Source: Parundibacterium terreum (GTDB taxonomy: Bacteria > Pseudomonadota > Gammaproteobacteria > Burkholderiales > Burkholderiaceae_D). From it: a stretch of DNA of 64,000 nt. Position numbers and translations under genes: made by a program. This document shows, piece by piece, positions 2,098 to 15,326 of this stretch (the first letter of the stretch is position 1; each line of letters begins with the position of its first letter). The notes under the pieces are model-generated. The model was not told the DNA's origin. It did not search any database and worked only from the letters and a program-made list of their open reading frames with translations. Where the stretch lies: the NCBI RefSeq assembly GCF_014636315.1, contig NZ_BMED01000001.1, positions 558,316 to 622,315 on the forward strand, given 5' to 3'.

Positions 2098-4875
2098 ATG
2101 CCCACATTTCCTTATCGCAATTTTCCTCGTATCGCCGAACTGCACTGTATGAGAAAAAATATAACTCTCCCATCAATGGGACAGCTAAAGAATTTTGCTT
2201 TTCTCAAGGAAAACCTGGGCTTCATCCTCGTCTGGCCCTTGCTCTGCGCAGCGCTCGCAGCCTTGCTATGGGGGCAGACTTTATCCACGATCAAAGAAGA
2301 CAAGCGGCTGCTAAAAGACAGTGCGCTGAAAGATGCCGCCACGCTATCGCGCGCTTATGCGCAATACCTGACCCGCACTACCGAGCAAATTGACCAGATC
2401 AGCATGCACGTCAAATATGACTGGGAAAATTCACACGGCCACCTGAGACTGGAAGACCTGCGCCAACGCGGCCTGTTCACCGCATCCCAGTTCGCAGTGG
2501 TTTCCATCTTGGGCCGCGATGGCAAGCCCATCACGTCTACCTCGACCAATGGGCGCTGGCAAGACAAAGCGCTTGCTGAACAATTCAACTTCCATAGAAA
2601 CAATAACTCCAGCGCCCTGAGGGTCGCCATGCCAGAAACCGGCGCCGCTGAAGAGAAAAGACTGGTACATTTCACACGCCGGTTGGAAAGAGAAGAGGAT
2701 GCCTTTGACGGCATCGTCGTCCTCTCTGTCGAAGCAGCATATTTATCCACCTTTTACGATGAGCAGAGCCTGGGCAAAAATGGTTTGTTGGCTGTCCTCG
2801 GCGAAAAAAACAAGATCGGTACCTCGCGCATAGGAGATCAAATCAACGATCCTGGCGGCCAGGCATTTATCAGCGAGCTGGTCCTGGATGCAGACAATGG
2901 CTCCCTTCGCGTTGAAGGGAGCAATCATTTTAGCGATAGGCAGTCGCGCTATGTCGGCTGGCAAAACCTGCGTGCCTATCCTCTGATTGCCATCGTCGGC
3001 TTGTCCGAGGAAGAACTATTGAGCACGCATCGCAATGACTGGAGCAGCACCAGGCGCTACACGATTGCAGGCAGTGTCTTTCTGCTTCTCTTCGCGCTGG
3101 TCGCCAGCATCATGTCGGCCCGCCTTTCGTGGCGCAAGCACCAGGCCCGGGAAGTCAGGGACACCTACAGGCTGGCAACCGAAGGCACGGACGACGGCTT
3201 CTATATGATGAACGCGTTGCGCGATTTGCAGGGGCAAATTATCGATTTCCAGTTCATCGATTGCAATGCGCGAGGGGCCGAGTTCTTTGGTCTCAATCGC
3301 GAGGAGCTAATAGACGTCAAGCTATCGTCGCTGCAAGGTGAGGCCTACTTCAAGGTGCTGCTTGCCATCTATTCAAAGGCCATGGAAACCGGCTTCTATG
3401 AAGACGAATACCAGCTCTCAAAAGAAAGCGGTCTGAACATGGCATGGGCGCGCAGGCGCCTGGTGCGCTCGGGATCCGGCCTAGCCGTCACCATACAAGA
3501 CATCAGCGTAAAGAAAGAGAATGAGCGCGAGCTGGAGCTATTGGCCAATCATGACGGACTGACCGGCCTGCATAACCGCCACTGGCTGCTGAATTTTTTG
3601 CCCGATGCCATTAGCAAAGCGAGCGCCGGACAGCATAAACTCGCCCTGCTGTTCATTGACCTGGATGGCTTTAAAAATGTGAACGATACACAAGGCCATG
3701 CAGCCGGCGACAATATGCTGAAATCGGTCGCATCTCGCCTGCAGTCGGTGCTACGGCCTACCGACAATGTGATCCGTTTGGGCGGTGACGAGTTTGTCGT
3801 CATCCTGCAACCGGTAGAACGGGACAGCAAGCCCGCCCGGGTTGCAGAAAGAATTGCAGAGGCCTTCCAGCAACCATTCTGGTGGGCGGGAGAAAAACAC
3901 CAGATTGGCGCATCAATCGGCATCAGCATGTTTCCGCGCGATGGCGAAGACAGTGAGACGCTGCTGAAGAATGCCGATATCGCGATGTATTCCGTCAAGG
4001 CCGCCGGCAAAGGCGACTACGACTTCTTCCGACCAGAACTGTATGCAAGGCTGCGGGCACGCTTTGAACTGGAACAGGCACTGATGCAGGCACTGGAGCA
4101 AAACCAGTTTGTACTGCACTACCAGCCGCGCGTCGATACGCTGAGCGGTGAAATGGCCAGCATGGAAGCACTGGTGCGCTGGATACATCCCGAACGCGGC
4201 CTGGTATCACCCGCTGAATTTATTCCCATAGCGGAAAACACAGGCTTGATCCTGCGCCTGGGCGATATGGTGATGGAAAAGGCCTGCGCGCAGATTGCGG
4301 CGTGGAAGGCAATGCAATTGCCTGAGCTGCCGGTCTCCATTAATGTATCGGCCAAGCAATTTCATGCCGGCAAGCTGCATCAAAAGCTCAGCGATTGCCT
4401 CCGCAAATACAATGTACGCGCAGACTTGCTGGAAGTCGAAATCACGGAGTCCTCCATGATGGGAGAAGACAATGCCATCATGGAAGAACTGGCAGCCATA
4501 CGGGCGCTGGGCATCAAGTTGCTGGTAGATGACTTCGGCACCGGTTATTCCTCCTTATCGCAACTGCAGCGGCTGGATATGGATATCCTGAAAATAGACC
4601 GGGTATTTACCAATGAACTGGATAAATCTGCAGAGGGAAAAATTTTCTTCAAGGCCATCGTTTCAATGGCCCATGCACTGGATATGACAGTCGTTGCCGA
4701 GGGGGTAGAGAGCAATGCGCAACTAGCCCTGCTGAGGGAACTCAACTGCGATGAAATACAGGGATATTTTATCTCTCGCCCTGTTCCCGCAGAGCAAATA
4801 CCTGCGCTGATGCAAAAATTATTGCTACTACCTGATGATTTAAGCAGTGATGCCACTTTATTAACTGCAGCCTAA
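2098..4875 (+). CDS. Membrane sensor diguanylate cyclase/phosphodiesterase (Cache-like, PAS, GGDEF, EAL)
   Basis: About 925 residues. A membrane helix near 40-58 and a second near 321-343 enclose a periplasmic sensor region that resembles a double-Cache domain. Next come a PAS-like region (about 360-475), a GGDEF domain with an intact GGDEF at 562-566 and an RPTD inhibitory I-site just before it, and an EAL domain (EAL at 690-692, then LEVEITES, DDFGTGYSSL, KIDRVF, AEGVES). All key residues for making and breaking cyclic di-GMP seem present, so the net activity cannot be read from sequence. The start is uncertain: 2098 has only a distant AAGAGG, and an in-frame ATG at 2176 would still keep the first helix. 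Confidence 0.9.
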   Translation: MPTFPYRNFPRIAELHCMRKNITLPSMGQLKNFAFLKENLGFILVWPLLCAALAALLWGQTLSTIKEDKRLLKDSALKDAATLSRAYAQYLTRTTEQIDQISMHVKYDWENSHGHLRLEDLRQRGLFTASQFAVVSILGRDGKPITSTSTNGRWQDKALAEQFNFHRNNNSSALRVAMPETGAAEEKRLVHFTRRLEREEDAFDGIVVLSVEAAYLSTFYDEQSLGKNGLLAVLGEKNKIGTSRIGDQINDPGGQAFISELVLDADNGSLRVEGSNHFSDRQSRYVGWQNLRAYPLIAIVGLSEEELLSTHRNDWSSTRRYTIAGSVFLLLFALVASIMSARLSWRKHQAREVRDTYRLATEGTDDGFYMMNALRDLQGQIIDFQFIDCNARGAEFFGLNREELIDVKLSSLQGEAYFKVLLAIYSKAMETGFYEDEYQLSKESGLNMAWARRRLVRSGSGLAVTIQDISVKKENERELELLANHDGLTGLHNRHWLLNFLPDAISKASAGQHKLALLFIDLDGFKNVNDTQGHAAGDNMLKSVASRLQSVLRPTDNVIRLGGDEFVVILQPVERDSKPARVAERIAEAFQQPFWWAGEKHQIGASIGISMFPRDGEDSETLLKNADIAMYSVKAAGKGDYDFFRPELYARLRARFELEQALMQALEQNQFVLHYQPRVDTLSGEMASMEALVRWIHPERGLVSPAEFIPIAENTGLILRLGDMVMEKACAQIAAWKAMQLPELPVSINVSAKQFHAGKLHQKLSDCLRKYNVRADLLEVEITESSMMGEDNAIMEELAAIRALGIKLLVDDFGTGYSSLSQLQRLDMDILKIDRVFTNELDKSAEGKIFFKAIVSMAHALDMTVVAEGVESNAQLALLRELNCDEIQGYFISRPVPAEQIPALMQKLLLLPDDLSSDATLLTAA

Positions 4876-5111
4876 AATCGGTCTATCAGCAAAGAAATAG
4901 CCGGCAACCGCAAGTACAGTTCCATGTGGCAATAAAATCCCCGATAGGGAAACAGGCTGCCTATCTGCGGGCAAGAATTGATGAATTATATGCATTCGCT
5001 TTTGAATGCAATGCCCGATATGATGCACACAACTCCGAAATGGAGCCGCAGTGAAAGAATCACCTCAAGAAAAAATCCCCTTTTTTCAAAGTCATTCTGT
5101 CAGGAGTCACC

Positions 5112-5339
5112 ATGTTCGGCATACAGCGAAAGCCCATGCAGGCAGTCACAGGGACGGAATCTCCCGGCTCTGTACAGCGCCATGACCTGGCCACCGAAAA
5201 AACCGTAGAAAAAGGCATATCTCTGCAATATTCCGTCGGCACCGTTTGCGCACTGGAATTCCTGCAGGCTGAAGGCGTCAGTCATACCGTAGCGCAACGG
5301 GTTTTATCCGAACCTGCCCGACGCCGCAACCGACACTAA
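5112..5339 (+). CDS. Small hypothetical protein
   Basis: A 75-residue protein with no family I recognise. An AGGAG ribosome site lies 6 bases before the ATG, which is the main support. It has no membrane segment or signal peptide; the C-terminus is basic (PARRRNRH). The middle (YSVGTVCALEFLQAEGVSHTV) could form a short alpha/beta fold. It stands alone between the GGDEF-EAL gene and the convergent fetB. The 236 bases upstream show no other gene. Confidence 0.55.
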   Translation: MFGIQRKPMQAVTGTESPGSVQRHDLATEKTVEKGISLQYSVGTVCALEFLQAEGVSHTVAQRVLSEPARRRNRH

Positions 5340-5372
5340 GCCCACTACCCTCTTCCACACAAGCCCAGAGGC

Positions 5373-6164
5373 TTACTGCATGCGGTCCAGCCGCAGACGG
5401 TGTCGTTCGTCCGTCACAGCCCGGGCGGCAAGATATACGGCGCCTACCGCCGCCAATCCACCGGCACCGGTAAGCAGGAACATCAGCAATATCTGGTATT
5501 TCACTGCCTCAACAGGGTCCATGCCGGCCAATATCTGCCCTGTCATAATGCCCGGCAAGGTAATGATGCCTGCCGCGGACATCTGGTTGATGATAGGAAT
5601 CAAACCTTTGCGAATCGCATCGCGCATCAGCGGCGCCAGCGCCTGGCTGCGGGTTGCCCCCAGCGCCAGCCGCCCTTCTATCTCGGACCGCCCCTTTACT
5701 ATGCCGCTAAAGAATACGTCCAGGCCCAGGCTGGCGGAGTTCAGTACGCTGCCCAGCACAATACCCATCAAGGGGATCGCATAACGCGGATCGTACCAGG
5801 GCTCAGGCCGGATCGCGGTCAGCAGCGCCAGCAACACCGTTGCCATCCCCGATACTCCAACAACGATCGCCCCTATCCTGAAATTAGCCCAGCCATACAG
5901 CCGCTGGGAAGGCCTGCCCGCAACTTCGCGGGCCGCTGCCAAAATCATCAGCATCACAATCGCCAATGTCATCGCAGGCGAACTCAGGCTAAATACAATC
6001 CTCAATACAAAGCCCACCAGCAGCAGTTGCACGACCATTCGCACCGCCGCCAGCAACACCTGCTTATGCAGGCGCAAGCCCAAGGCTATGGAAATCGCCA
6101 CGTCCAGCAATACCAGCAAAGACGCCAGGCAAATATCAAGCGTATCGAGATGGATAGGTTTCAT
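5373..6164 (-). CDS. fetB: FetB/UPF0014-family ABC transporter permease (iron export)
   Basis: A 263-residue membrane protein with about seven hydrophobic segments and the UPF0014/FetB hallmark stretch GSVLNSASLGLD near residues 135-147, followed by LALGATRSQAL and MSAAGIITLPGIMTGQILAG. In E. coli the FetAB pair exports iron and helps survival under oxidative stress. Here the ATG overlaps the stop of the ATP-binding partner by four bases (ATGA), showing translational coupling. It is the last gene of a two-gene operon. Confidence 0.88.
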   Translation of the reverse strand: MKPIHLDTLDICLASLLVLLDVAISIALGLRLHKQVLLAAVRMVVQLLLVGFVLRIVFSLSSPAMTLAIVMLMILAAAREVAGRPSQRLYGWANFRIGAIVVGVSGMATVLLALLTAIRPEPWYDPRYAIPLMGIVLGSVLNSASLGLDVFFSGIVKGRSEIEGRLALGATRSQALAPLMRDAIRKGLIPIINQMSAAGIITLPGIMTGQILAGMDPVEAVKYQILLMFLLTGAGGLAAVGAVYLAARAVTDERHRLRLDRMQ

Positions 6165-6802
6165 AGCGCGTGCAACTGTCTTTCGCGAATTTCAAAGCGC
6201 CGCCCGCTGACACGACCAGCCTGCTCGTCAGAATGCGTAACCCAGATGACGGCGAGCCCTTGCTCCATGCGCTGATGCAGCAGCTTTTCCACCGCCAGGA
6301 TGGACGCCTGATCCAAGGCTGCAGTCGGCTCATCCAGCAACAACACGCGAGGTTCGCATGCCAGCGAGCGTATCAGCGCCAGCCGCTGCCTTTGTCCGGT
6401 TGACAGGCGCGTCACATCCGATTCCAGCAAAGCCGGCTCCAGGCCGAGTTGCTCCATCATACCTAGCACCGCAGGCAAGTCTTCAGCGGAAAAATGCGCT
6501 GCTGCACTCGGCTCCCACCAGGCAGGCTCCGCCGCCTGATACACCACCTTGCGCCGCCATTCCGGCGCCGGCATCGCGTCACGGGCGGTATCCTCCAGAT
6601 ACACTTGGCCGGCATGCGGATCCAGGTCAGCGATCATGCGTAGCAATACACTCTTGCCGGAGCCCGATGCACCCATAATGGATGTGCATTCACCGGCAGC
6701 GAGTTCCAGCGAAAACGGGCCGCGGTGGCTGGACTGCAGCGCCAATAGGCGCAGCAATGGCTGGCTCTGCACAGCGTGCGAAGTATCTTTGTCAGGCGGC
6801 AT
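6161..6802 (-). CDS. fetA: FetA-type ABC transporter ATP-binding protein
   Basis: A 213-residue ATPase: Walker A GASGSGKS, a signature-like LSTGQRQRLALIRSL, Walker B VLLLDEPTAALD, and the switch His in WVTHSDEQ. It is short, as expected for a stand-alone nucleotide-binding subunit. It overlaps fetB by four bases and so almost certainly powers that permease. The start has only a weak AGGGA about 9 bases upstream. An orphan terminator-like hairpin lies about 90 bases upstream on the same strand. Confidence 0.88.
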   Translation of the reverse strand: MPPDKDTSHAVQSQPLLRLLALQSSHRGPFSLELAAGECTSIMGASGSGKSVLLRMIADLDPHAGQVYLEDTARDAMPAPEWRRKVVYQAAEPAWWEPSAAAHFSAEDLPAVLGMMEQLGLEPALLESDVTRLSTGQRQRLALIRSLACEPRVLLLDEPTAALDQASILAVEKLLHQRMEQGLAVIWVTHSDEQAGRVSGRRFEIRERQLHAL

Positions 6803-6893
6803 GGATGCTGGTCCCTATAAACTTGATGTCCATACATGATTGTAAAGGGAAACCAAGGATGCCATGCCCAAGTCACCCTCCATTACCGCATGG

Positions 6894-6930
6894 GCAAAAA
6901 AAAAGCCCGCAGGTGTTCAGGCTGCGGGCT
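6894..6930 (-). terminator. Rho-independent terminator on the minus strand with no gene before it
   Basis: Perfect 9-base arms AGCCCGCAG (6904-6912) and CTGCGGGCT (6922-6930). On the minus strand this is followed by an unbroken run of about ten U residues, a textbook terminator. The only minus-strand DNA that could feed it is the roughly 150 bases upstream of the divergent uppP gene, where no ORF has a ribosome site. It may end a small RNA, or form a leader/attenuator for fetAB. Confidence 0.7.
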
Positions 6931-7165
6931 AAATCCAATTCCTTAGGGAGTAATTGGGAGAGTGTCGCCATTATGCGCATCAACTATGACGCGCTTATGA
7001 CACAGTTTTAAATTTTTTAATTTACATTCTTCTCGCGATAAACCAGGCTGATCTCGCCAAATAAGAATTAAAAATAATCATAACGATTTGATACACCTAT
7101 CCGGCATTTGCAATGTTATATTTCTGCCGGATCAAATTTTTACTTATTCAACAACGGGAGATCAC

Positions 7166-8038
7166 GTGTCCATTTCTTGCCCCGGCGGCCTGGATATAGG
7201 CTTTGCTTCACTGGATTATCTACAAATTGCCATTCTCGGCGTCGTGCAAGGGATCACCGAGTTGCTGCCCATTTCTTCCACCGCGCATATGCGTATCATC
7301 CCTGCCATATTAGGCTGGAACGATCCGGGCTCCGCGTTTTCGGCAGCAATGCAACTGGCAGCGCTGGCCGCCGTCGTCAGCTATTTCTGGCGCGATGTAC
7401 GTGGCGTGATCGTCGGCAGCAGCACAGCCATTCGCACCCGTGATTTTGACCACCACTCTTTCCGGCTGGCAGTCGCGATCATACTGGCGACCATCCCTAT
7501 CGGCATCGCCGGGCTGGCCTTGTCATCTGTACTGAATGCCTGCAATTCGCCTTTGCGCAGCCTGACCGTCATCGGCATCTCGTCGCTGGCAATGGCAGTA
7601 TTGCTGGCAATCGCGGAATTCAGTTGCCGCCACCTGCGCAGCATGCAGGAGATGCGTTTGCGCGATGCGCTGATCGTCGGCATTGCCCAGGTCGGAGCAC
7701 TGATACCTGGCGTATCCCGCTCCGGCTCGACCTTGACGGCCGCCCTGTTCCTGAACATGAAGCGAGATGAAGCCGCGCGTTTTTCTTTCTTGCTGGGTTT
7801 GCCGGCCATTGCGCTGGCGGGCCTGAAAGAACTGTGGGTTCTGTATCACGCGCATATTCCACTGGAGGCCTGGAAACTGCTGGGTTTTGGACTGGTTATC
7901 GCAAGTATCTCGGCATTCTGCGCGATCTGGGGTCTGATGCGCTTCCTGGAAAAATTCTCGACCTGGCCTTTCGTGATCTACCGCGCAGCAATGGGCATAT
8001 TCCTGATCGGCGCCGTGTATATGGGCTTTCTACACTAA
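7166..8038 (+). CDS. uppP: Undecaprenyl-diphosphate phosphatase
   Basis: A 290-residue polytopic membrane enzyme of the BacA/UppP family. It recycles the lipid carrier for peptidoglycan and O-antigen by removing a phosphate from undecaprenyl diphosphate. Both family motifs are present: GITELLPISSTAHM near residues 30-45 and PGVSRSGST near 180. I chose the GTG at 7166 because GGGAG sits 5 bases before it; an upstream in-frame ATG at 7088 has no ribosome site and would add 26 atypical residues. Confidence 0.92.
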   Translation: MSISCPGGLDIGFASLDYLQIAILGVVQGITELLPISSTAHMRIIPAILGWNDPGSAFSAAMQLAALAAVVSYFWRDVRGVIVGSSTAIRTRDFDHHSFRLAVAIILATIPIGIAGLALSSVLNACNSPLRSLTVIGISSLAMAVLLAIAEFSCRHLRSMQEMRLRDALIVGIAQVGALIPGVSRSGSTLTAALFLNMKRDEAARFSFLLGLPAIALAGLKELWVLYHAHIPLEAWKLLGFGLVIASISAFCAIWGLMRFLEKFSTWPFVIYRAAMGIFLIGAVYMGFLH

Positions 8039-8090
8039 GAGACACTGGCTGACAGGGGTGGCGGGGGTGGCAGCAGAGCGCCACCCCGCC

Positions 8091-9782
8091 TTAGTTGTTG
8101 ATCAGCCTCAGTACCCGCAATTGCCGACGCAAAGCTTCGCTCGGCGTTTTCAATGTGGATGCACAACGGTCCAGGTCTCCGGCATGATCCTGCAGCGCCT
8201 GCCTTATTTCATCTTGTGGAATAGCCTCGGCCCACCGTATCTGTGGATGGTTTTCCAACAGCTTATACATGGTCGGGCGCGAAATCCCCAGTTGCTGGGC
8301 GGCGTTGCTGATGCGCCAGGCATTGCTCTCCATCGCGGAAAGAATATCTTCGTGCGTCAATTCAGACAGCCTGGGTTTGCGTACCGCCTCTTCAGCGGGA
8401 ATCAGTGAAGCAAGGTCGGCCACCGGCTCATTGCTGGCAGGGCTAATCGCCTTTGCCGTAGCAGCATGCACAGGCTCGGCACTACCTTCCCGGCTCATGC
8501 TTCGCTGCGCGCTACTAGCAGTGCGATGGGCTGAACTGACCTTATGGCTACGCACAAAATCCGCCAGCACCGGCACGTCGCCGGCACTCGCCACCATCAC
8601 CGCGCGGCGCAGTACCTGCGCCAATTGGCGTATATTACCGGGCCAGTCGTCGTTGCACATCTCACTGATGAAAGGCATGGGCAATTCCACCTGAACGCCC
8701 GTCTGCGCGGTCCATTGTCTTAGGAAGTGTGCAATCAGCAGGCCGATATCCTCACGTCTCTCACGCAGGGCGGGCACATGGATGACGAAGGCTTCCAATC
8801 GGCGCAGCAAGGCCTGGTTAAAAGCACGCGCGTCGAGATCCTGATCAGTCGCAGCAATCAGCCGGGCGCTGGAGCGCTGGTCTGCACGCGCGCCCAATGG
8901 CCGGTAGTCACCAGTCTCCAGCACGCGCAGCAGCATGGGCTGCACGGTCACCGGGGTGTCGCCAATCTCATCCAGGAATAGCGTGCCGCCGTCCGCCTCC
9001 GCAAACAAGCCGGCACGCGAATTCTGTGCCCCGGTATAAGCTCCTTTGACTGCGCCAAACAGATCGGCTGCCGCCAGCGATTCATTCAGCGCCGCCATAT
9101 TCACCGCAACCATGGGGCCGTCCTTGCATTTGCTGGAGGCATGCACGGCACGCGCAGCCACTTCCTTGCCGGTACCGGTCTCGCCCAGCAACAGCACCGT
9201 CAAATCAGTCTGGGCCACCTGCCGTATCTGATCGCGCATGGTGATCGCCGCGCTGCTGACGCCCAGCAAACCGTCCATGCCGTTGGCTTTGGGTGCATTG
9301 CGCATCCAGTGTATGCACACCAGCACGACCCCGCCCAGCGCCAGGACAACGCCTTTGTCCACTTCTTCGCGCGACAAGCTCAATGAGGAAACCAGAGGGC
9401 TGCCATTAACCTCCACCTCCATCAGGCTCTCTGCAGCAATGATTTCTACCGTATCCAGCGCATTGCGCCTGATTGTGAGCGGCGCGCGTGCAATGCAGCG
9501 ATGCCCTAGAGCCACGCCCCCTTTGCCCGGCTGATGAAAAAAGGGAAAGGAGCGGCTCAATTCAACAACACCCTCGCCTGCCGGCCCCATGAATTGCTCA
9601 CCGACCCTGTCCATCTCTGGATGCCACAGGATAGTCAGGCCCAGCATGGGGCCGCTATTGCGCTGCAATGCAGGCAAACGCGAGGTCAAGGTGTATTCGG
9701 TATTGTCGCTCACAAACTGCTCACTGAGATGGAATCGAAGGCATAGCAGATTATCGTCTACTGATGCTTGCACTTCAAGCAA
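8091..9782 (-). CDS. Sigma-54-dependent transcriptional activator with N-terminal FHA domain
   Basis: A 563-residue enhancer-binding protein. Residues about 45-150 form an FHA-like domain ([11 protein letters not shown], then VEVNGSPL), which reads phosphothreonine instead of a receiver domain. An AAA+ domain follows, with Walker A GETGTGKE, sigma-54 contact loop GAYTGA, Walker [10 protein letters not shown] and an arginine-finger region. The C-terminus carries a Fis-type helix-turn-helix ([16 protein letters not shown]). The TTG start at 9782 is supported by AAGGGGAA just upstream. It is transcribed away from two DUF1842-type genes across a repeat-rich region with a -24/-12 promoter, so it probably controls them. 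Similar FHA activators act in type VI secretion and under Ser/Thr kinase signalling, but neither is visible here. Confidence 0.9.
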
Positions 9783-9790
9783 TGTTCCCC

Positions 9791-9893
9791 TTTTACACCG
9801 GCAGCGAACGCCATTGACATGTAAAAGCGGCTTTTTTTACACAAACATGCCCACCTAAAGCCAATCCCGGGTGCTTTTTTACAGCAATCCCGG
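9791..9893. promoter_or_regulatory. Candidate upstream activator sites: repeated TTTTACA/TGTAAAA half-sites
   Basis: TTTTACA occurs at 9791-9797, 9835-9841 and 9877-9883, with the complement TGTAAAA at 9820-9826. The 9820/9835 pair forms a perfect palindrome with an 8-base spacer. A longer direct repeat (CAATCCCGG followed shortly by a T6 run) is present at 9862 and 9885. The cluster lies 20-110 bases upstream of the sigma-54-type promoter, where enhancer-binding proteins usually bind, and immediately beside the activator gene. Confidence 0.55.
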
Positions 9894-9903
9894 CTTTTTT
9901 AGC

Positions 9904-9918
9904 TGGCATGCAATTTGA
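9904..9918 (+). promoter_or_regulatory. Candidate sigma-54 (-24/-12) promoter
   Basis: TGGCAT at 9904-9909 and TTGA at 9915-9918 match the TGGCAC-N5-TTGC consensus with the right 10-base spacing between the GG and the GC-equivalent pair; the last base is A instead of C. Transcription would start near 9930, leaving a leader of about 55 bases before the first DUF1842 gene. Confidence 0.55.
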
Positions 9919-9985
9919 CTATACAAGCACAGCGACCGGATTGCTCCGGCCTACCTGAACCAGCTCAATAGCCAAGGACGCCATC

Positions 9986-10459
9986 ATGACCGGCTTGTTT
10001 TTCGTCTCATACATACTCGGAGATCCGGCTGCCATCGGCCCGATGCTGCAACTGAACCTGTCCGTCGACAGCCATAACCACAGTATACGCGGCCATTGCC
10101 TGGTCATGCAGCAAGGAACCCAATCCGGCCTGCCTGTTACCGGCAGTTTTGAAGCGATCAGCATTCCCAATGCCACAGGCAAGCTGGTGGCGGTAGAACT
10201 AGAGGCCGACCTGCCTGCGGCCGACGCGCTCAAAACTGAATTCAATTTGCATATGCTCGTCACTGCGGACTGGAAAGACGGCAATGCCAGTTTTCGCTTT
10301 CAGCATCATGTAATACCCGACGTGCCTGTGCTGCTGGAACCAACCAGGCAACTCAAGCAGGCAGCTCTGGGGCAACTGCAGGAATATCTGCGCTGCACCT
10401 ATGGGCGCGCATTCGGCGCCTACCTGCCCGCCGCTTTCGACCTGAATTTCGTCGAGTGA
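9986..10459 (+). CDS. DUF1842 domain-containing protein
   Basis: A 157-residue soluble protein starting MTGLFFVSYILGDP, which resembles the start of DUF1842 proteins (GLFFVSYKLG-type), and containing the later LxxTADWKDGNASFRF stretch. The function of the family is unknown. The fold looks beta-rich; there is no signal peptide or membrane segment. It is the first gene after the sigma-54-type promoter and overlaps the next gene through TGATG. The C-terminal helix (about residues 120-140, RQLKQAALGQLQEYLRC) differs from the rest and may be an interaction segment. Confidence 0.72.
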   Translation: MTGLFFVSYILGDPAAIGPMLQLNLSVDSHNHSIRGHCLVMQQGTQSGLPVTGSFEAISIPNATGKLVAVELEADLPAADALKTEFNLHMLVTADWKDGNASFRFQHHVIPDVPVLLEPTRQLKQAALGQLQEYLRCTYGRAFGAYLPAAFDLNFVE

Positions 10460-10872
10460 TGGGCGCTGCCATGACACGTCAGGCGCCAGCCAGCTTCCAG
10501 GCATCCTACCTGCTCGAAAGCAGCAGCGAATTCGGCTCCAGCCTGAAACTGGAACTCTGCGTGGACACCATGCTGAAAAGAATCCGCGGGATTTGCCATG
10601 TACAGCGGGGCCCGGTCCAGTTCGACCTGGAACTGGACGGCGGATATAGCGAACTAGCAAGGCAATGTGGCCGGGATGGTGAGGGTGGCGAGCAGGCGCT
10701 GCAGGTCAACCTCGTCGGCAATCCCAGGACCATTCCATTGCGCGACTCCGCGCTGTTGCTCAAAATGAGGCTTACACCGGATTGGAAAGCAGGCAGGGCC
10801 GACTATCATCTTTTTTCCAGAAAAATCGACGATGCACTGGTAAGACAGGATGACAAATGGCTGGGGAGATGA
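10459..10872 (+). CDS. Second, diverged DUF1842-like protein
   Basis: A 137-residue protein. It shares the layout of its neighbour: an N-terminal (F)xASYLLE strand, LxLELCVDTxxxxIRGICHV, and LKMRLTPDWKAGRADYHLF, which lines up with LHMLVTADWKDGNASFRFQ next door. I infer an old tandem duplication. The ATG shares its A with the last base of the upstream TGA, so translation is coupled; an ATG at 10471 is an alternative start. No function is known. Confidence 0.62.
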   Translation: MGAAMTRQAPASFQASYLLESSSEFGSSLKLELCVDTMLKRIRGICHVQRGPVQFDLELDGGYSELARQCGRDGEGGEQALQVNLVGNPRTIPLRDSALLLKMRLTPDWKAGRADYHLFSRKIDDALVRQDDKWLGR

Positions 10873-10932
10873 AGGTAAGAACATGCGCGGGCAAAGCCGC
10901 AAAAACCAGGCGATGATAATCAGAGAAGATAA

Positions 10933-11439
10933 TCAGGCGATGATGTTCAGGCTTTCTATGATTCCCTGATTATACGAATTGCCGATCAGAATAGACGACA
11001 GATTGGGGTTGTAGCGCAGCAAGCTGCCCAAGTCGGTTACGCGAGAAAAAGGCAGGCTTTCCAGTACGCCCGTCGCATTATAGACACCCGCTCCAATAGA
11101 TTTGGCCGACAGCGTGGCAACAATCTCCTTGTCCACGGCATCCTGCAAGACAGAATCTGAATTACTCCCGTTGGCTTGCAGCCATGCATAAGGATCGCTC
11201 GCCAAATTCGTATCCACAGACAGGTTGCCGCTGAGCAAGCCCGTAGGCGCATAAGTCAAAGCAGCGCTACCACTCCCTCCGGACAGTGCTGCAATCACGC
11301 TGGAGTCCTCAGTCAGCACAACATTGGCTTCTTGCTGGGCAACCGCCGCGCTACTTCCGGCGTCGACAGCCGTAGTAGAGGGATAGGCGGACACCCCACT
11401 GCTGTCAGGATAGCTGGATCCAATACCGGAAATAGGCAT
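10933..11439 (-). CDS. Hypothetical Ser/Ala/Gly-rich protein
   Basis: A 168-residue protein of unusual composition, rich in Ser, Ala, Gly, Val and Asn and poor in charged residues, with no signal peptide. Motifs such as DSSVIAALSGG, LLRYNPNLSSILIGNSYNQG and the hydrophobic end SLNIIA do not match a family I know. The ATG lacks a clear ribosome site. The composition recalls surface or secreted proteins of proteobacteria, but there is no secretion signal to support that. It is convergent with the DUF1842 pair. Confidence 0.5.
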   Translation of the reverse strand: MPISGIGSSYPDSSGVSAYPSTTAVDAGSSAAVAQQEANVVLTEDSSVIAALSGGSGSAALTYAPTGLLSGNLSVDTNLASDPYAWLQANGSNSDSVLQDAVDKEIVATLSAKSIGAGVYNATGVLESLPFSRVTDLGSLLRYNPNLSSILIGNSYNQGIIESLNIIA

Positions 11440-11611
11440 GATAATAAATCGCTAGATAAACACTGGGTACTGCGCAAGTCTCAAAGCGGCGCTATGAATA
11501 CGTCCATCCAATAGTACCTATTTGTACTATAGATGCTTCCGAACGAAATTCCAGATATCTAAAATGTAATAAAGCGTAAAATTTTGCTGGCGAAATTATT
11601 TTAAGCAACAT

Positions 11612-11638
11612 GGAATAAACCGGTGCCCGGTTCTGTTT
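11612..11638 (+). promoter_or_regulatory. Possible ECF-sigma-type promoter before the COG4315/sigma/anti-sigma genes
   Basis: GGAATAAAC begins at 11612 and resembles the GGAAY -35 element used by many ECF sigma factors. A CTGTTT lies 16 bases after GGAAT. This would allow the ECF sigma factor encoded downstream to drive its own operon. The -10 match is weak. Confidence 0.28.
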
Positions 11639-11678
11639 ACGTTCATGCAAGTCCATCAATCACCTTACCGGAGCCACC

Positions 11679-12056
11679 ATGAAAAAAATTTCCCTGCTTG
11701 TCGCCCTGCTTTCATCCTGCCTGGCCACCAGTGCTGCTTTTGCGCAAGAAGCTCCCGTTAAAAAAACCGGGGATATTCTCGTCAGCGATTCCGGCATGAC
11801 TTTATACACTTTCGACAAGGATGCGGCCGGTAGCGGGAAGAGCGCATGCAATGGTCCCTGCGCTGGCCTGTGGCCGCCCCTGATGGCATCTGCAGGCGCC
11901 AAGGACAACGGCGACTACAGCGTAATTACGCGTGATGACGGCGGCAAGCAATGGGCCTTCAAAGGCAAGCCTTTATACATGTACACTCCTGACAAGAAGG
12001 CCGGAGACCGCGCCGGTGACAATTTCAAGGACATCTGGCACGTGGTGAAAAACTAA
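11679..12056 (+). CDS. Secreted COG4315 / Lipoprotein_15-repeat protein
   Basis: A 125-residue protein with a clear signal peptide (residues 1-23, ending SAAFAQ). Two copies of the secreted repeat follow: SDSGMTLYTFDKD ... CNGPCAGLWPPL, and later KQWAFKGKPLYMYTPDKKAGD. The family has no proven biochemical role; members occur next to ECF sigma/anti-sigma pairs across proteobacteria. The CNGPC pair of cysteines could form a disulfide or bind a metal or haem. The gene leads a three-gene cluster with a sigma factor and its regulator. Confidence 0.85.
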   Translation: MKKISLLVALLSSCLATSAAFAQEAPVKKTGDILVSDSGMTLYTFDKDAAGSGKSACNGPCAGLWPPLMASAGAKDNGDYSVITRDDGGKQWAFKGKPLYMYTPDKKAGDRAGDNFKDIWHVVKN

Positions 12057-12082
12057 GCATGATTCAAGGCCAGGCCGTCTGA

Positions 12083-12610
12083 ATGGAAAACTTGCCGGAA
12101 CAAGATCATCTGTTGATTGCGTGCATCCCGCGCCTGCGCCGTTATGCGCGGGCGCTGGTCAGCGACCATGCGCAAGCGGACGACCTGGTGCAGGATACGC
12201 TGGAGCGTGCATGGAACAAGCTGGCGCTGTGGCGCAACGGCAGCGACATGCGCGCATGGTTGTTCGGCATCATGCACAACCTGCATGTGAACCAGGTACG
12301 CAAACCGGCCCTGGCCACCGTTGCCATGGATGAGGACGCATTCGCGCAAGCAGTGCGTGCCAGCCAGAGCGACCAGCTGGAAGTGCGCGACCTGCACGGC
12401 GCCCTCCAGTTACTGCCAGGCGATCAGCGCGCAGTATTGCTGCTGGTGGCGCTGGAGCAAATGTCGTATGAGGAAGTGGCAAACACACTGGACATCCCTA
12501 TCGGCACCGTCATGTCGCGCCTGGCGCGTGGCAGGGAAAAATTAAGAGTACTGATGCAGGGTCGCGCCGCGGCCCCGGCATCTGCCGTAGCGCTGAAAGT
12601 CGTCAAATGA
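12083..12610 (+). CDS. ECF-type RNA polymerase sigma factor
   Basis: A 175-residue sigma-70-family factor with only regions 2 and 4. Region 2: RRYARALVSDHAQADDLVQDTLERAW, then MRAWLFGIMHN. Region 4: LPGDQRAVLLLVALEQMSYEEVANTLDIPIGTVMSRLARGREKLR in outline, a typical helix-turn-helix that binds the -35 element. Its stop overlaps the ATG of the anti-sigma gene (ATGA). The cluster suggests a cell-envelope or oxidative stress response. Confidence 0.92.
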   Translation: MENLPEQDHLLIACIPRLRRYARALVSDHAQADDLVQDTLERAWNKLALWRNGSDMRAWLFGIMHNLHVNQVRKPALATVAMDEDAFAQAVRASQSDQLEVRDLHGALQLLPGDQRAVLLLVALEQMSYEEVANTLDIPIGTVMSRLARGREKLRVLMQGRAAAPASAVALKVVK

Positions 12611-13428
12611 AGCCTGAACCGATTACCGAAGCTGAACTGCATGCCTACGTTGATGGCTTGTTACCCGCAGCCAAACGGCAGCAGGTCGAGGCATGGCTGC
12701 AAGCCACGCCTGAGGATGCAGAGCTGGTAAGGATTTATCGCGAACAAAATGCCGCGCTGCGCGAGCTGTTTGATCCTGTGCTGGAAGAAGCTGTTCCTGC
12801 TTCGCTGCAACAGCCGGAGCATGGCGCATCGCACAACCCTGGAGCCAGGCAGTTTTCTCCATGGTCCCTGCAGCGCATTGCCGCCAGCGTCTTGCTGGCA
12901 TTTGCCGGCGGCATTGCTGGATGGACGCTGCATGGCTGGCAATCCACGCCAGCGGCAGATGCGCTGGCAGTCACAGCCCATCCAATGCAATTACTCAGCG
13001 CCCTGCCGCAGCAGGCAGCCATTGCGCATATTGTATTCAGCCCCGAAGTCAGGCATCCGGTAGAGGTGGGTGTAGACCAGGAGGCGCATCTGGTGGCATG
13101 GCTGTCAAAACGGCTGGGAACCAGCCTGCACCCACCCAAGCTGGGGGCATTGGGCTATGAATTAATCGGCGGCAGGCTCTTGCCGGGCAATAATGGCCCG
13201 GTAGCGCAGTTCATGTATAACGACGCATCCGGCCAGCGGCTTACTTTGTATGTAGCGACCGAAAATAGCGAAAACCACGACACCGGTTTCCGCTTCGCGC
13301 AGGAAGGCCAGGTCAATGTCTTTTACTGGATAGACGGAAAGTTCGGCTATGCCATGTCGGGCAGCATAGCCAAGCCAGAGCTATCTCGCATCGCAGGCAG
13401 CGTCTACGATCAGTTGCAGGCCAAATAG
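12607..13428 (+). CDS. Transmembrane anti-sigma factor
   Basis: A 273-residue protein. The N-terminal cytoplasmic segment (ITEAELHAYVDGLLPAAKRQQVEAWL) is typical of anti-sigma domains that hold ECF factors, but it lacks the zinc-binding H-x3-C-x2-C motif. One membrane helix lies near 88-108 (ASVLLAFAGGIAGWTL). The periplasmic part (ISPEVRHPVEVG-type start, then LGYELIGGRLLPG and TGFRFAQEGQVNVFYWIDGKFGYA) is the sensing region common to this group. It is translated from the ATGA overlap with the sigma gene. Confidence 0.88.
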   Translation: MKPEPITEAELHAYVDGLLPAAKRQQVEAWLQATPEDAELVRIYREQNAALRELFDPVLEEAVPASLQQPEHGASHNPGARQFSPWSLQRIAASVLLAFAGGIAGWTLHGWQSTPAADALAVTAHPMQLLSALPQQAAIAHIVFSPEVRHPVEVGVDQEAHLVAWLSKRLGTSLHPPKLGALGYELIGGRLLPGNNGPVAQFMYNDASGQRLTLYVATENSENHDTGFRFAQEGQVNVFYWIDGKFGYAMSGSIAKPELSRIAGSVYDQLQAK

Positions 13429-13491
13429 GCAAATAGCAAATAGCCACACATCCAGCACTGGATGACGCGTCAGACCGAGCCTGCAGTTGCT

Positions 13492-13851
13492 TCAACTGTG
13501 CTGCAATTCCGTCCACACCGCTTCGACGATCAGCATGGCTGCGCGATCGGCGTCAGCTTGCTGGCCGCAGGCTGCGGTAAGCAAGGCATCATTGCCGCTC
13601 TCCAGCCCATAGTAGCGGCGTATGCCGTGCGCCCAGCCATGATGAAAGATCATCAGGTCTTCCCTCTTGGTGGCCTTCACCATTGCCTTGTCTTGCGCCG
13701 ACATGCGCGACAACAGGCTGTCGACGGTGTCTTCCATGCTTGCAGGCCAACGGCTCTGCGGCAGCACATCGGGCCGTCGGGAAAGCACATCGGGAGTAAA
13801 CGGAACCAGTAGCGCCGTCATTGTTTCGGCGATCGTTTTTATTGTATGCAT
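13492..13851 (-). CDS. DUF6794-like hypothetical protein
   Basis: A 119-residue protein. The pattern PASMEDTVDSLLSRMS followed by DLMIFHHGWAHGIRRYYGL and SGNDALL matches the small DUF6794-type family, whose role is unknown. The start at 13851 is chosen because GGGGAGG lies 4 bases before the ATG; the longer version to 13935 would run into the preceding gene and add residues without family support. It follows another small gene on the same strand. Confidence 0.7.
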   Translation of the reverse strand: MHTIKTIAETMTALLVPFTPDVLSRRPDVLPQSRWPASMEDTVDSLLSRMSAQDKAMVKATKREDLMIFHHGWAHGIRRYYGLESGNDALLTAACGQQADADRAAMLIVEAVWTELQHS

Positions 13852-13906
13852 GTAGCCTCCCCAGAAGTCGGACCACAGAAAGCGGCCTTGCACCGCTTTC
13901 TCAAGT

Positions 13907-14245
13907 TTATGCGAGGATTTCCAGGCCTCGCTCATCGTGCAATATAGCTCCCAAACGGGATGCCAGTTCCCTGGCTTTCAGCAGCACCTGCTGATCGTAA
14001 CGCGCCGCGATTTTTCCATGCACGTATTCAAACACATACAAGCTGCCCTGAACCGGGTGCATGTAAAAAGCACAGCCATTGCTTGCCACCTGTTCCGCTT
14101 CGCCCGTCGCCGGATTCACCGCGGACAACTCGCTCACCACGCGCAGCGAAGGATCGGTGCTACAGGCGGATAACCATTCTTCAAGGCAGATGTGATTGTC
14201 GTTTGTGTCGTGCTGCTTTCTTGCAATATAAATCTCACCCGCCAT
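13907..14245 (-). CDS. Small hypothetical protein
   Basis: A 112-residue soluble protein, MAGEIYIARKQHDTN to GLEILA, which I cannot place in a family. Strand-like segments (GCAFYMHPVQGSLYVFEYVHG) precede a C-terminal helix. GGAAG lies 5 bases before the ATG at 14245; an upstream ATG at 14257 has poorer spacing. It is followed 55 bases later on the same strand by the DUF6794-like gene, so they may form an operon. Confidence 0.6.
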   Translation of the reverse strand: MAGEIYIARKQHDTNDNHICLEEWLSACSTDPSLRVVSELSAVNPATGEAEQVASNGCAFYMHPVQGSLYVFEYVHGKIAARYDQQVLLKARELASRLGAILHDERGLEILA

Positions 14246-14257
14246 CTTGTCTTCCAT

Positions 14258-14558
14258 GCCTTGATGCTACTCCGAACATTCCTGATTATCCAGGCCCGTT
14301 GTTCTGCAAAAGAGAGGCTTCCCCCCGCTTAACTGAAAAAACTCAAAACCCGCGCCGGCATTACATTTCCAGGTGGAAACAAGCCATTGTAAGCTCTTAG
14401 GCAGAGCACGCATTCTGCCCCTGTTTTAATTATTTGTCATTAGCATGCAAGCATCCCGATCAGAGAATTTTGTAAATCTTACAGGGGGCCTTAGCCCCGA
14501 CGTTCATCCAGCAATCAAATCCGGGTTCGATAAATTTGTTGATCGGATTTATTCAGCA
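14258..14558. other. Stretch without a convincing gene
   Basis: About 300 bases between divergent regions. It holds a weak inverted repeat (AAATCCG near 14518 and CGGATTT near 14545) downstream of the FAH-family gene, which might act as its transcript end, and a short GGGGCC-TTA-GCCCC hairpin near 14484-14497. No ORF has a ribosome site. Confidence 0.4.
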
Positions 14559-15326
14559 TTACTCCACCAGCAACTCAACAACGCCCAGTCCTGGAAATAC
14601 CGCTTTGACCCTCGTGCCTGGTTTGGCATAGGTCAATCCGGTGCAAGAACCGGTAGTGATAATCTGTCCGCTGCGCAGCCCTCCGCAACGCATTGCCGCG
14701 TGATTGGCAAGCCAGGTCACCAGCTCCCAGATGTCGCCAACCGGATTGCCTCCCGTTGCTGCTACCACCTGCTCCACATCGAAATACAGCTCCACCGCCT
14801 GCAGCGTCTGATCAATCTCAATATCCGTGGTTCGCCCCGGGCCTACCACCAAAGCCTCATTGCTCAAGCTGTCGGCAAGGCCTGCCAGCGGATTGGATTG
14901 CGTTGACGAAAAGCGCGAAGAGACCACCTCCAATGTGGGATGCAGCGAGGCGACCGCTGCTATCACTTCGGCGCGGGTATACGCGGAGGACTTGAGAGGC
15001 AAATCCTGCTTCAGCAATAACGCGATCTCCGCTTCCACTGCGCAACGCCCCCTTCCAGCAGCGGAGATCGGCACCGGCGACTCATGAATCAGGCTGCGCG
15101 GCAAAGCAGCACAATTGGCCTGCATACCCGGCCCGCGGGCGCCGACTTTCCAGCCGCCAGTCTCACCCAGTGAGCTCGTCACAATATCCTGGATCGCATA
15201 GGCATCCGCCGCATCTTGCGGCATGGCATCATCGTCCAGGGTCGCGAGCAAGGTGCCGCTGCGTCTGGCCTCCAGTAGCAGTTGCGCGGCGGCCAGATTT
15301 CTTGGAGTGTGCATAGGTGCTTTCAT
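14559..15326 (-). CDS. 2-keto-4-pentenoate hydratase / fumarylacetoacetate hydrolase family protein
   Basis: A 255-residue enzyme of the MhpD-like group. It shows the expected AYAIQDIV, GGWKVGARGP (substrate loop), CAVEAEIALLLKQDLP (acidic metal-binding region) and the C-terminal GQIITTGSCTG ... GTRVKAVFPGLG. Family members add water to 2-hydroxypentadienoates or decarboxylate oxo-acids in aromatic ring breakdown. No other ring-cleavage gene is nearby, so the substrate is unknown. The ATG at 15326 marks the start of family similarity; residues further upstream do not look real, and the ribosome site is weak. Confidence 0.82.
   Translation of the reverse strand: MKAPMHTPRNLAAAQLLLEARRSGTLLATLDDDAMPQDAADAYAIQDIVTSSLGETGGWKVGARGPGMQANCAALPRSLIHESPVPISAAGRGRCAVEAEIALLLKQDLPLKSSAYTRAEVIAAVASLHPTLEVVSSRFSSTQSNPLAGLADSLSNEALVVGPGRTTDIEIDQTLQAVELYFDVEQVVAATGGNPVGDIWELVTWLANHAAMRCGGLRSGQIITTGSCTGLTYAKPGTRVKAVFPGLGVVELLVE

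Follow-up and report, generated by a model that had tools for sequence, protein, structure and literature searches.

A divergent DUF1842 pair beside an FHA-fold sigma-54 activator in Parundibacterium terreum: probable rewiring of a kinase-linked module

A 64,000-nucleotide stretch of the Parundibacterium terreum genome (contig NZ_BMED01000001.1; hereafter the window, numbered from its first letter) contains a sigma-54 activator gene that diverges from two overlapping small genes of the DUF1842 family, and raises the question of how such an activator came to stand beside DUF1842 genes and to what it might respond. We consider it reasonably likely that the locus is a rewired form of a kinase/FHA-activator/sigma-54 module, from which the partner kinase is gone and whose output is now the DUF1842 pair. 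The ancestral module, found mostly in Oxalobacteraceae, would have joined a Hanks-type Ser/Thr kinase with tetratricopeptide repeats (TPR), an FHA-fold sigma-54 activator, an operator and a divergent promoter into one switch. In the lineage of P. terreum and a sister genome (G655, placed in the same genus by its kinship label), the partner kinase would have been lost and the divergent slot filled by the DUF1842 pair.

The activator gene occupies 8091-9782 on the reverse strand and encodes 563 amino acids when counted from TTG 9782. Its Pfam matches are Sigma54_activat (PF00158, 3.9e-52), AAA_lid_14 and HTH_8 (PF02954, 1.3e-9). The AAA+ sigma-54 interaction domain with its lid (PF00158, PF25601) spans residues 174-420 (8523-9263), and the Fis-type helix-turn-helix (HTH) spans residues 480-507 (8262-8345). 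The loop motif GAYTGA, read from the translation, lies at residues 247-252 (9027-9044), where G247, A248, Y249, G251 and A252 are invariant in the activator family alignment. The protein thus possesses the AAA+ domain with a GAFTGA-type loop and the HTH that characterize sigma-54 enhancer-binding proteins, and the intact AAA+ and Fis domains described in an initial annotation of this DNA were confirmed, as were all of its open reading frames (ORFs). No NCBIfam model among the 25 shown of 32 matches reached its own cut-off for the activator. In 11 of 22 aligned relatives the longest ORF starts no more than 10 residues from a conserved Thr31; in the window activator, 7 residues precede this position from GTG 9713 and 30 from TTG 9782. 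Judged by the start positions of the relatives relative to Thr31, GTG 9713 is the likelier start and may be the true one.

The initial annotation had attributed FHA sensing to the N-terminal domain (residues 25-166; 9285-9710, reverse strand). Pfam gave no PF00498 (FHA) match to the window activator at E<=1, FHA was absent from the 25 families listed of 42 in a Pfam search with 23 family members, and hhalign of the domain against three FHA sequences of the P. terreum genome gave no significant alignment (E 0.14). Among PDB sequences, a profile built from the domain matched just one below E 0.5, the FHA domain 3gqs (E=0.0034). An AlphaFold model built from 58 sequences reached a mean confidence (predicted local distance difference test, pLDDT) of 87.6, and a Foldseek search with this model returned six PDB structures at E<=0.001. 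Five of them are labelled FHA (best 1uht, 4.6e-5); the sixth is the type III secretion system protein PscD. Because the model matches FHA structures in the PDB, the predicted fold of the N-terminal domain is FHA. The phosphothreonine pocket of FHA domains includes the Arg of a GR motif, the Ser of SxxH and the Asn of NG. The putative pocket Ser position is Ala in the window (Ser in 40, Ala in 16 and Thr in 2 of 58 rows), Met stands at the position of the phosphothreonine-binding Asn in 57 of the 58 rows, and the Arg that we take for the GR Arg is invariant (58/58), in a register that depends on weak alignments (the 3gqs profile and hhalign) and, for the Arg, on our reading alone. Because of the Ser to Ala and Asn to Met changes the pocket appears altered and phosphothreonine sensing is doubtful, which is a suspicion rather than a result; of the initial claim, the FHA fold survives and the sensing is in question.

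A domain-profile scan of named genomes, which used conserved-peptide patterns and can miss distant relatives, recovered 59 loci for this activator family. By title they are mostly from Oxalobacteraceae (Massilia, Duganella, Undibacterium, Janthinobacterium and others), together with a few metagenome-assembled genomes (MAGs) that are only broadly named. A Hanks-type Ser/Thr kinase gene is found beside the activator in 48 of the 59 loci, convergent with it in 46 and in the same direction in two. Alignment to a kinase-TPR query extends over at least 690 residues for 44 of these 48 kinases, and the four that were tested with Pfam consist of Pkinase and TPR domains. Among the 11 loci without a kinase, L174 contains no activator gene, L148 shows no kinase over 2.9 kb, four (L116, L123, L125 and L134) end within ~0.8 kb of the activator end, and five (L155, L157, L160, L165 and L170) are second activator copies in Massilia. 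The second copies also lack operator half-sites, and share a gene row of their own. In a distant MAG (L173, 5920-10207), the gene directly after an FHA-like sigma-54 activator combines a Pkinase with an FGE-sulfatase domain, which suggests that the link between kinase and FHA activator is older than the Oxalobacteraceae. The kinase would act on the activator in these relatives.

In the window, the gene after the activator encodes BacA/UppP, and no TPR-type Ser/Thr kinase gene adjoins it. The P. terreum genome (99.3% complete) contains nine Pkinase matches, and the partner kinase is matched there at best at 33%, across ~256 of 728 residues and in the kinase domain only; the kinase-linked genomes G507 and G438 gave 60-69% over more than 700 residues. 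A full-length orthologue of the partner kinase was not found in the P. terreum genome. The Ser/Thr kinase link suggested in the initial annotation is seen in the related loci, but no full-length counterpart was found in the genome itself. In the activator tree, the window and sister sequences form a pair within a 10-row group that contains eight kinase-linked rows (85/85), which in turn falls within a 21-row group (100/97). This tree is read more simply as kinase loss, although with a midpoint root and a very long L173 branch it does not establish loss over gain. Kinase adjacency in the relatives and its absence in the window would make the conserved kinase/FHA-activator/sigma-54 module the thing that was rewired, from an ancestor that presumably had the kinase and whose input would have changed with its loss.

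The regions upstream of the family activators contain two recurrent elements. The sequence CATGTAAA, chosen because no other 8-mer was more strongly enriched, is present upstream of the activator in 25 of 58 regions, where random segments give a mean of 0.9, and 57 of 81 occurrences of operator 9-mers in the 58 loci (overlapping palindromes being counted twice) fall within 350 bp upstream of the activator, across 30 loci. A near-consensus sigma-54 promoter facing away from the activator was detected in 27 of 59 upstream regions, compared with 1.45 in Markov-resampled sequence, and one facing towards it in 4 regions, compared with 1.4 expected. Neither the window nor the sister belongs to these 27, both being below the score threshold of 13.4 (maximum 15.4). 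Small proteins, which in many cases carry a DPE motif close to the C-terminus, were matched beside the activator in 39 of the 59 loci (e.g., L122:7558-8202 and L152:7551-7922). Of the small proteins encoded between activator and kinase, those tested could not be named from Pfam or NCBIfam and were not convincingly matched in the PDB; two sets of them are related to each other, and homology of DUF1842 with these proteins was unsupported by comparison.

The window possesses operator sites upstream of its activator. The operator ACATGTAAA...TTTACA (9817-9841) contains the inverted pair TGTAAA-N10-TTTACA at 9820-9841, which is enriched upstream of the activators of relatives and kept in the sister genome. 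Further TTTACA half-sites are present at 9792-9797 and 9878-9883, and the half-sites as a whole are located 26-112 bp upstream of a -24/-12 sigma-54-like element, TGGCATGCAATTTGACT (9904-9920, forward strand). Between this element and the first DUF1842 gene, direct reading of the sequence gives AAGGA, which resembles a ribosome-binding site (9974-9978, forward strand). In the sister, TGGCATGNAATTTGACT and the half-sites are kept, the offsets of both further half-sites from the -24 element and the spacing of the element itself are identical, and the operator lies 89 bp from -24 as in the window. Motif columns are identical between the two genomes at 34 of 35 positions, compared with 44 of 75 other columns (p 8e-6), the motif columns having been partly picked from the same sequences that are compared. 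The candidate promoter rests on this conservation because the score of the element is no better than chance. The two DUF1842 genes described initially behind a -24/-12-like element are present, and the element is conserved in the sister, but its score is at chance level. No RNA family was detected at the gathering threshold. The sister contains a second operator and a TGGCACGGAATTTGA promoter of the same layout (L181:1490-1870), ahead of a 48-amino acid ORF that was found in 1 of 392 genomes searched and may not be a real gene.

The two divergent genes, as annotated, are tandem, overlapping DUF1842 genes, one of them diverged. DUF1842 protein A (9986-10459, forward strand) is 157 amino acids long and protein B (10456-10872, forward strand) is 138 amino acids long; they score 48.0 and 26.8 bits against PF08896, above its gathering cut-off of 23, and share 27% identity, B being the diverged copy. 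The stop codon of A (10457-10459) overlaps the start of B (GTG 10456 or ATG 10459), and A and B are the only DUF1842 genes found in the 6.37-Mb genome. By sequence, A matches the 8-stranded beta-barrel domain of a solved DUF1842 protein (8t0b, 7.7e-5). An AlphaFold model of A built from four sequences had low confidence (pLDDT 47.8) and was not used. The C-terminal tail of A (residues 111-157; 10316-10456, forward strand) is its best conserved part, with 37 of 47 residues identical in the sister against 57 of 110 ahead of the tail, and is positioned where the solved protein has DUF1843. Neither A nor B gave a DUF1843 match at E<=1. DUF1843 was also not found elsewhere in the genome, but control genomes gave no match either, so that its absence is not established. 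With A as the sole query, a scan of named genomes recovered no relative. Plasmids gave no match to A or to the FHA domain, and viral contigs no match to A or B; an origin from a plasmid or phage was rejected on these results.

Among the genomes sampled, the arrangement of activator and DUF1842 genes was seen only in P. terreum and the sister, and a general co-occurrence of FHA activators with DUF1842, for which the initial annotation had suggested a search, did not hold. Identity between the two genomes is 88% for the activator and 60% for both A and B. The ratio of nonsynonymous to synonymous substitution rates (dN/dS) is ~0.07 for the activator, 0.19 for A and 0.31 for B, with dS near saturation at 1.0-1.3; within the activator, the FHA-fold domain has a dN/dS of 0.11, indicating purifying selection. 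The uppP row was dropped from this comparison owing to a poor alignment (42 amino acids, 17%), the sister gene probably being cut by the contig end. The sister contig ends ~0.8 kb past the activator, which makes the absence of a kinase there less certain.

The DUF1842 family is rare. Genes above the cut-off were found in 3 of the 300 genomes scanned from the order and in 5 of 398 from the phylum (P. terreum included in each), and a protein search of 392 genomes of the family detected it in 14, namely P. terreum, the sister and 12 of one Duganella-type genus. The comparison of upstream regions covered the 21 DUF1842 genes of the Duganella-type genus, of G032 and G205 and of the four other genomes from the phylum scan, leaving out a below-cut-off match in G029. 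None of the 21 has the operator pair in the 400 bp ahead of it, and their best sigma-54 score, 12.5, stays under the threshold. DUF1842 genes that lack the activator and the -24/-12 promoter, which the initial annotation had named as evidence against its own proposal, thus exist outside the window lineage, and the idea that FHA activators generally have DUF1842 as a partner was rejected. The pairing of DUF1842 with an FHA activator would instead be a lineage-specific rewiring, which we hold to be the probable explanation. In the Duganella-type genus (L076-L087), a single DUF1842 gene adjoins a gene assigned as msrA-like by clustering in 9 of 12 loci, and for one of these the MsrA identity was confirmed, hinting at a role for DUF1842 in oxidative stress. 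Published work gives further expression contexts for DUF1842 genes: in Burkholderia thailandensis they rise towards stationary phase (PMC12322963), in Chromobacterium they rise with quorum sensing (PMC12114271, PMC10197875), and in C. violaceum one is upregulated with iron and adjoins a putative sodB (PMC4216352). The solved DUF1842 protein appeared monomeric and was given no function (PMC10994174). Among the literature matches listed, no publication on the kinase/FHA-activator module or on DUF1842 function was recognized.

A mechanism consistent with these observations can be proposed. The activator would bind the TGTAAA/TTTACA half-sites upstream of the -24 element, and its AAA+ ring would hydrolyse ATP to open sigma-54 polymerase at TGGCATGCAATTTGACT, so that sigma-54 would drive expression of A and B, which are probably translationally coupled and made together. 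The closeness of the operator to the start of the activator suggests autoregulation. The activator now probably takes its input from a protein contact or from a different kinase. A more speculative version, to which we give little credence, is that the family gave up canonical phosphothreonine reading while staying linked to a kinase, and that where this kinase was lost the two DUF1842 proteins are at once the output of the switch and the ligand of its FHA domain, forming a feedback loop that replaces phosphorylation.

Besides the midpoint root of the tree and the partial choice of motif columns from the sequences compared, several observations weigh against this rewired module. The arrangement is known from just two genomes, and the sister genome is 56% complete. 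In the 350 bp upstream of the activator, 28 of 58 family loci have no operator 9-mer. The -12 part of the window element is TTGA, not TTGC, and the element scores 11.9 of 15.4, under the sigma-54 threshold and within what was obtained by chance (11.4-13.0 near the other three operator sites in the P. terreum genome, and at most 12.5 ahead of DUF1842 genes elsewhere). The operator pattern has four sites in the P. terreum genome against one for a control pattern, and one of the four is inside a gene resembling that of a ribosomal protein. A strict sigma-54 pattern gave no match near the other three sites, although this pattern would miss the window element too. The scores do not separate the operator sites, because those at the other sites are mostly no lower than that of the window, and the idea of a wider regulon in the P. 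terreum genome was rejected. The window promoter sequence, with one mismatch allowed, has one further match in the genome, without half-sites.

The strongest competitor to the rewired module holds that the FHA domain still reads phosphothreonine, and that another Hanks-type kinase of the genome has replaced the lost partner, an idea that goes back to the initial annotation. Nine Pkinase matches provide candidates, and the FHA fold, the presumed GR Arg and the purifying selection on the domain are all retained, but the Ser to Ala change in the window and the nearly universal Asn to Met change in the family speak against it. Furthermore, the FHA proteins of the genome that Pfam can detect are three others, one of which is encoded ~1.1 kb from a kinase. 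We regard this explanation as possible but on balance unlikely. The doubts about the promoter lead to another reading, with a smaller share of our confidence, in which the DUF1842 pair has a conventional promoter and stands divergent to the activator by inherited synteny, without being regulated by it. The off-consensus -12, the chance-level score and the 21 DUF1842 genes elsewhere that have no operator pair and no sigma-54 match at the threshold would fit. Nevertheless, the half-sites and the -24/-12-like element are conserved in the sister, many relatives have the same layout with a near-consensus promoter, and a sigma-70 scan yielded 2 matches against 2.1 by chance and nothing within 9783-9985.

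The remaining explanations concern the DUF1842 genes and the fate of the locus. Tandem DUF1842-DUF1843 genes adjoin a TIGR03913 maturase in G032 and G205, and a similar cluster is described in Chromobacterium subtsugae (PMC12114271). A and B might by this analogy be relics of the TIGR03913 radical S-adenosylmethionine (radical-SAM) "trio" system, in which they would have been peptide-maturation substrates. This seems improbable for two proteins that have no DUF1843 match, in a genome where a search made without a positive control found none, and that are both under purifying selection. Least probable of all, and very much so, is that, with its kinase lost, the locus is now degenerating and serves no function: the missing partner kinase and the divergence of B would agree with decay, but the dN/dS values of 0.07-0.31, the conserved control region and the intact activator motifs would not.

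How does the proposed rewired module compare with known systems? FHA-type activators, regarded as a link between Ser/Thr phosphorylation and sigma-54 promoters, are already known from Myxococcus. Enhancer-binding proteins of Myxococcus xanthus, in which an FHA domain is joined to a sigma-54 activator as in the window protein, were reportedly described by Jelsbak and colleagues in 2005. The window system would be a variant of this kind: its FHA domain is under Pfam detection and has altered pocket residues, its family is mostly from Oxalobacteraceae, and an operator and divergent target are proposed for it. With enhancer-binding proteins of the PspF/NtrC type the window protein shares the GAYTGA AAA+ core and Fis-type HTH, and differs in its FHA-fold sensor. 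On the output side, A matches the 8-stranded beta-barrel domain of Q63NT7 (PDB 8t0b, 8t1m and 8t1n); Q63NT7 has a C-terminal DUF1843, whereas A has a different conserved tail and B almost none. The TIGR03913 "trio" system, with its GDL-motif peptides, resembles the window in its tandem DUF1842 genes and differs in its DUF1843/GDL partner domain, for which A and B have no match. Within 4000-15000 of the window, no ORF of maturase size (487-524 amino acids) other than the activator was found, the ORFs above 300 amino acids there being 925, 563, 317 and 316 amino acids long; the rest of the genome was not searched.

Across many Oxalobacteraceae, the module offers a testable family in which kinase, FHA-fold activator and operator are linked with a sigma-54 promoter, and the window lineage looks like a natural experiment in which the kinase was lost and the output replaced. 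The module may also provide a regulatory handle on DUF1842, a family with a solved fold, and the predicted operator could be used to seek regulons.

Beyond the DUF1842 pair, the window at 11679-13428 contains a secreted-repeat gene (PF03640), an extracytoplasmic function (ECF)-type sigma factor gene and a gene of 273 amino acids, none of which has a match at this place in the sister contig. Immediately beside B, a gene of 168 amino acids (10933-11439) without a Pfam match is present in the sister at 67% identity, and its C-terminus is strongly conserved.

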